Positions 4,487-4,967 of a stretch of DNA of 48,705 nt are shown piece by piece. The notes beneath the pieces were generated by a model, which was not told the origin of the DNA, searched no databases, and worked only from the letters and a program-made list of their open reading frames with translations. The DNA lies in assembly GCA_018396915.1 (NCBI GenBank), contig JAGTRD010000002.1, positions 1 through 48,705 on the forward strand, given 5' to 3'. The position numbers were made by a program, and so were the translations under genes. The stretch is from Candidatus Bathyarchaeota archaeon. Lineage in GTDB: Archaea > Thermoproteota > Bathyarchaeia > 40CM-2-53-6 > RBG-13-38-9. Within the stretch, counting starts at the first letter, position 1. Each line of letters opens with the position of its first letter.

Positions 4487-4495
4487 TTTTATATG
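4487..4495 (+). promoter_or_regulatory. TATA box for the Pro/Tyr repeat protein gene
   Basis: TTTTATATG ends 50 bases before the ATG at 4545. A purine-rich leader with GGGAG follows, so the gene seems to have its own promoter and a leadered mRNA. Confidence 0.5.
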
Positions 4496-4544
4496 AAGCC
4501 TCCGCAGTTTCTAATAGATTAAAGGGAGATGGGGTAAACGGGAA

Positions 4545-4910
4545 ATGTCATACTATGTTGTACCTAAACCTGCTCAGAAATATACGTATAAACCTCCACC
4601 TCAAGAATATGTTGTTCAACCACCACCAACCTATGTAATGGTTCAGCAGCCACCCCAAATATACCGATACCAGCCACCACCCCAAGACGTACTCCTAGTT
4701 CAGCCTCCGGAAGTATATTACCAACCACCACCAGTAGAATGGGTCGTTCCTCAGCCCCCGCAGCCGGTTGTATATCAGCCCCCACCAGTAGAGTATCTCT
4801 ATCAGCCCCCACCACAACCAGCCATAGTGGTACCACCACCACAGACATACCTTTACCAGCCTCCGCCTATGAGATATCTCGTACAACCACAGCCTTACAA
4901 AGTATATTGA
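4545..4910 (+). CDS. Pro/Tyr/Gln/Val-rich repeat protein
   Basis: A 121-residue protein made almost wholly of Pro, Tyr, Gln and Val. PPP or PP blocks recur about every nine residues, separated by hydrophobic-aromatic spacers such as QEYVVQ, QIYRYQ, VEYLYQ and QTYLYQ. It has no Cys, no Gly, few charges, no signal peptide and no membrane helix. The regular phase and the clear TATA box, Shine-Dalgarno and downstream T-run argue that it is a real gene. Long overlapping frames on both strands are by-products of the repeats. A structural, adhesive or protein-binding role can be imagined from composition (compare extensins), but nothing in the neighbourhood tests it. Function unknown. Confidence 0.75.
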   Translation: MSYYVVPKPAQKYTYKPPPQEYVVQPPPTYVMVQQPPQIYRYQPPPQDVLLVQPPEVYYQPPPVEWVVPQPPQPVVYQPPPVEYLYQPPPQPAIVVPPPQTYLYQPPPMRYLVQPQPYKVY

Positions 4911-4950: not shown

Positions 4951-4967
4951 ATCATTTTTTTGATCAT
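4951..4967 (+). terminator. T-run terminator after the repeat protein gene
   Basis: A run of seven T (4955-4961) flanked by ATCA and TGAT lies 45 bases past the stop codon. Oligo-T stretches end transcription in archaea. Confidence 0.5.

Follow-up and report, generated by a model that had tools for sequence, protein, structure and literature searches.

A conserved proline- and tyrosine-rich repeat protein family in one order of Bathyarchaeia-type archaea

Positions 4545-4910 of the window (the whole stretch of 48,705 nucleotides that was analyzed) are a real coding gene under purifying selection. The product is a Pro/Tyr/Gln/Val repeat protein that belongs to no named family, and its relatives are so far restricted to the window's own order, one of hot-spring-type archaea. 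The job of the protein is probably structural. With this finding, a poorly known archaeal order gains a protein family that is strongly conserved and as yet unnamed.

A Regular Repeat in a Small Protein

The gene and its surroundings have the following features:

4487-4494, plus strand: TATA-like box TTTTATAT, read from the sequence; identical in the nearest relative (G001) and in three copies of genus g2
4524-4534, plus strand: weak Shine-Dalgarno-like GGGAGATGGGG, read from the sequence; varies in G001
4545..4910, plus strand: ORF (ATG to TGA) for the Pro/Tyr/Gln/Val repeat protein, 121 aa (P0001)
4701..4733, plus strand: most conserved core, QPPEVYYQPPP, residues 53-63, from alignment A1 of 15 sequences; nucleotide range computed from the residue numbers
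4955-4961, plus strand: run of seven T (T7), candidate terminator, read from the sequence; G001 has T6 there

The 121 residues include 37 Pro, 19 Val, 19 Gln and 18 Tyr but neither Gly nor Cys, and the net charge is +1. The prolines are gathered in 11 PP or PPP blocks (eight PPP and three PP) spaced by 9, 10, 8, 10, 7, 10, 8, 9, 9, and 9 residues (mean 8.9). The self-match of the protein peaks at lag 9 (0.37) and is larger at lag 18 (0.45). These counts confirm the original prediction of a regular repeat of about eleven PP/PPP blocks, free of Gly and Cys. When the residues were shuffled, none of 10,000 shuffles had at least eight PPP, and the observed self-match at lag 9 or lag 18 was reached in none of 10,000; nor did any of 10,000 random spacings match the evenness of the blocks. 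Eleven blocks of PP or longer are by themselves not very rare at the same composition (407 of 10,000 shuffles). Among the 171 ORFs of at least 80 aa on the 167-kb contig, the protein ranks first in its Pro and Gln fractions and second in Tyr, and it holds eight of the 25 PPP motifs of the contig. The translation, judged by eye, has no stretch resembling a signal peptide and no hydrophobic N-terminus.

Elsewhere on the contig, outside the window, lies an 80-aa ORF with 26% Tyr, 14% Pro, and 12.5% Gln (L070:11363-11605, minus strand). It adjoins a secreted-looking protein of 1255 aa and had no match in the repeat-protein searches.

Selection on the Gene and Its Flanking Signals

The view that the region is a repeat tract, non-coding or selfish, which merely happens to read as a gene now deserves scarcely any credence. 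The low complexity of the sequence would fit such a tract, as would the opposite-strand frames, which are open too. However, of the 15 differences that separate the ORF from its counterpart in G001, 13 are synonymous and two non-synonymous, and 13 fall at third positions (dN 0.007, dS 0.17, dN/dS about 0.04), which refutes a non-coding tract. The dN is the lowest among nine genes compared with G001, the eight neighbors ranging from 0.010 to 0.048. The intergenic gaps are 89% identical upstream (126 columns) and 81% identical downstream (177 columns). The family of homologs with conserved ends also speaks against a tract. The original prediction would have given way to such a tract had close relatives shown neither homolog nor transcript; homologs were found in 14 genomes, and its claim is borne out that the gene is genuine, stands separately, and belongs to a family shared by close relatives.

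The gene had also been credited with a promoter and a terminator of its own, and here the prediction stood in part. The TATA-like box is conserved, the three g2 copies with the identical box sitting in a different gene context, and the T-run is kept in G001, but the Shine-Dalgarno sequence is approximate only. T-runs of five or more lie behind six of the 15 homologs, in about four lineages, as against 668 of 6,000 (11%) random 90-mers.

Distribution of the Family

The protein was searched against 61 genomes, among them the window's own, and matched in 14 of them, at 16 places. Thirty-eight of the searched genomes are the window's own or come from its genus, family, or order, and all 14 positives are among those 38. 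By family, the positives are 8/9 in f1, 3/3 in f4, 1/2 in f2, 1/21 in f3, 0/2 in f5, and 1/1 in f6. When the whole class (Bathyarchaeia-type) was searched with a profile, the same 14 genomes, all of the window's order, were the ones to match among 256. Genomes drawn from the phylum gave three matches in 398, two within the order and the third in G338. The last (7.6e-6) was considered as a relative outside the class and judged convergent: the ORF is coiled-coil-like and has a perfect PPPKEIVSS repeat. Such a coiled-coil-like protein of another class (L064:496-2094, minus strand) holds eight PPPKEIVSS-like units, and its nine-residue PPP repeat apparently arose independently.

The window protein has no match in Pfam, NCBIfam, or PDB sequences. 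The excerpts available of the literature on archaeal and Bathyarchaeia proline-rich repeats, extensin, zinc ribbon, and polyproline II hold nothing on the family. The QZM samples are Tibetan hot-spring sediments, and the samples of that study were at 56.9-83.0°C, according to the part of the report consulted (PMC8407382).

Anatomy of the Family and the Register of Its Repeats

Two alignments (A1 and A2) cover 15 of the 16 places; L013, in G011, was omitted, its start being unclear. Identity to the window protein is 42-98% among the other fourteen aligned members. The family starts with MSY or MAY followed mostly by a PRP- or PKP-like stretch (conserved start MSYxxxPRP), and in many members it ends in a YRV-like tail. 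In the core, P55, Y59, P61, and P62 are invariant across the 15 sequences.

The repeat unit was profiled over 108 units of 11 sequences, for which, as for the identity comparison below, the near-duplicates L003, L009, L016, and L017 were further omitted. It reads roughly hydrophobic-hydrophobic-Y-Q-P-P-(P)-x-x-Y-Y/V-V, the fifth and sixth positions after the first Pro being hydrophobic or aromatic in 80 and 74% of cases. Identity outside the prolines averages 0.37 between species (55 pairs), as against 0.22 for the best shifted identity within a protein. The repeats are thus old and tied to their positions, which is what defined contacts would lead one to expect. Since they held their places, this is no tract that expands freely, and the conserved start, the core, and the fixed register together argue for one old family.

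Two members, L006 and L007, extend into a four-cysteine CxxC...CxxC zinc ribbon, which begins where the window protein stops. The best Pfam E-values of these tails (Zn_ribbon_3, DZR) are 0.00032 and 0.047, respectively, under the curated cut-offs. The L007 model superposes on solved RanBP2-type zinc fingers over 23-26 columns to within about 1 Å, with non-significant E-values. The CxxC...CxxC tails are where the family resembles the archaeal terminal zinc-ribbon proteins; the window member differs from these in having no cysteine and in ending where the ribbon would start.

Predicted Structure

AlphaFold2, given 15 sequences, models the window protein (mean pLDDT 86.0, pTM 0.43) as twelve short strands, mostly split by the proline blocks. 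The same pattern of strands and PPP turns is predicted for a zinc-ribbon homolog 47% identical to it (pLDDT 81.9, pTM 0.49); the two runs are not independent, as they share one sequence set. A beta-solenoid or beta-roll would have stacked coils with strand-to-strand pairing; strands are predicted here, and the comparison gave no fold match among solved structures (best E 4.8 and 4.1; VIA, 0 of 39 chains at Z of at least 2), nor was there a match among viral structure models. AlphaFold2 is described, in the part of the study consulted, as turning random repeats, when these are perfect, into beta-solenoids that score as confident yet are unrealistic; for several natural families with diverged repeats the predictions are consistent between methods (PMC11795689). 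The repeats of our family are diverged, which mildly reassures us about the strand model. We nevertheless put it forward as a hypothesis that the repeat units are short strands and the PPP blocks their turns.

Gene Neighborhood

In the window, the gene stands between what we take to be an MBL-fold protein gene upstream and genes for a glycosyltransferase and a DedA-like protein downstream. G001 has the same block, and G005 and G006 have part of it. Elsewhere the surroundings differ and presumably include genes for a VWA-like membrane protein, an S2P-like protease, and a propeller-like secreted protein. With ten loci pooled, 11 of 19 adjacent genes have a hydrophobic segment, whereas among the remaining genes the count is 31 of 120 (Fisher p 0.007; a single post-hoc test on a simple hydropathy threshold). 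By the same hydropathy test, neither of the window's own two neighbors is a membrane protein.

A partner gene conserved across all genera was not found. In G005, G006, G007, and G008 a divergent neighbor of the repeat gene encodes a surface protein that has a zinc-ribbon tail (cluster 6). As a general partner it was rejected: the window's genome has weak partial matches (best 1.0e-11), and many of the matches across genomes lie on the shared ribbon tail.

A Proposed Scaffold or Adaptor, and Its Rivals

Our best explanation, a tentative one, is that the protein is a leaderless, probably cytoplasmic, multivalent scaffold or adaptor of proline-turned Tyr/Val/Leu segments, perhaps working at the membrane; we infer its location, its strand/turn fold, its scaffold role, and its membrane link. 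The protein would consist of roughly twelve units, each about nine residues long and PP(P)-x-x-Y-x-V-x-Q-like. The proline blocks would serve as rigid turns or spacers, and the Tyr/Val/Leu segments between them would be either short beta strands or exposed contacts of hydrophobic and aromatic residues. Such an array could bind itself or a partner protein, and the C-terminal zinc ribbon of the two relatives may be one more interaction module. The low dN, the fixed register, the hydrophobic unit positions, the AlphaFold2 strands, the zinc ribbon, and the membrane-like neighbors elsewhere are consistent with a scaffold. The low pTM in both models, the one sequence set behind them, the false beta repeats that AlphaFold2 can predict with confidence, the lack of a structure match and of an all-genera partner, and the window's own neighbors speak against it.

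A bolder form of the scaffold reading, which we consider rather improbable, is a proline-punctuated beta array with nine residues per strand plus turn and eighteen per period, the PPP replacing the Gly/Asp turns of known beta-rolls. Such a repeat fold, from thermophilic archaea, would be new; the protein would serve as a cytoplasmic, self-assembling scaffold at the membrane, sometimes capped by a zinc ribbon. If the arrangement of strands and PPP turns is true, it would be a new way to build a heat-stable repeat protein that needs no glycine, and the family would offer a good natural test case for how much trust AlphaFold2 deserves when short repeats are imperfect.

The main rival, which we hold to be somewhat unlikely, is that the protein forms an extended polyproline-II rod, or is a disordered carrier of linear motifs, and offers its recurring PPxxY-type motifs to a domain dedicated to binding them. 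The polyproline-II helix has three residues per turn. The nine-residue spacing, a multiple of three, would put like residues on one face, and the proline content, the recurrence of the blocks, and seven PPxxY motifs suit this rival. AlphaFold2 favors strands between the PPP blocks instead, and hydrophobic segments of four to six residues seem long for a soluble rod. The polyproline-II scaffold of the original prediction is thus possible, the strand model being itself not decisive. Its proposal of a WW or SH3 ligand gained no support: there is a single PPxY, at residue 27, and neither WW (PF00397) nor SH3_1 (PF00018) was matched in any of the 14 genomes. The controls were weak, that for WW matching nowhere, which makes the search uninformative, and that for SH3 matching in Bacillus subtilis only, under the cut-off.

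In plant extensins, too, proline blocks recur every 9-10 residues or so, alternating with segments of the Tyr-Val-Tyr-like kind. They are secreted, carry Ser-Pro4, and are hydroxylated and cross-linked in the wall. The repeat protein shares the alternation and the spacing but lacks Ser-Pro4 and any visible secretion signal. Extensin_2 (PF04554) does not place P0001, and one homolog, L006, scores 11.3 bits against a curated cut-off of 20.8, so that the suggested cross-linkable structural protein was not upheld. A polymerizing subunit of a fiber, sheath, or coat, akin to viral triple beta-spirals, strikes us as quite improbable. In the part of the source consulted, the consensus of these spirals, which form the shafts of adenovirus fiber and reovirus sigma1, alternates hydrophobic strands with turns at Pro or Gly, either residue standing at position j of a 15-position repeat (PMC3150272). 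The strand-turn repeats, the proline at the turn, and the high Tyr/Val content agree with it. The shafts, however, are viral and trimeric, and 15 positions compare poorly with about nine (spacing 7-10); a signal peptide was not seen, and Foldseek rows with sigma1 were not significant (E 9.0 and 9.5). No phage searched has a relative of the family, the four stretches of viral contigs that fit the pattern are unrelated to it, and in PHROGs one of 15 members matches, to a membrane-protein family (0.00039).

Very improbable, in our judgment, is an expression sensor or sink, in which the eight PPP would make synthesis depend on aIF5A and the amount of protein would report aIF5A or prolyl-tRNA. The share of the contig's PPP motifs found in this one gene would fit, and so would what we take to be a prolyl-tRNA synthetase-like gene, one gene away in G007/G008. 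Consecutive prolines do stall ribosomes, a stalling relieved by IF5A/EF-P, as stated in the portion of the source seen (PMC6105217). Against this, the homologs keep the repeat and not always the PPP (L010 and L017 have one each), and the synthetase linkage is found in genus g2 only.

Other Genes Near the Repeat Gene

Two diverged copies of the repeat gene are present per genome in G007 and G008 (L008/L016 and L009/L017). A few kilobases from the gene in these genomes lie what we take to be CdvA/B/C-like genes (CdvB, a Vps4-like ATPase, and a CdvA-like gene at L031:2-6753 and its counterpart L032), and Snf7 matches there were confirmed. A general Cdv/ESCRT partnership was rejected, since both the window's genome and the remaining relatives with matches have their Snf7 genes on contigs other than that of the repeat gene, and three f4 genomes carry the repeat gene without any Snf7 match. 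The presumed prolyl-tRNA synthetase-like gene is a few genes from the first copy in genus g2 (L031/L032). One copy in G007/G008 stands behind genes that we take to be aldehyde ferredoxin oxidoreductase-like and JAB/MPN-like.
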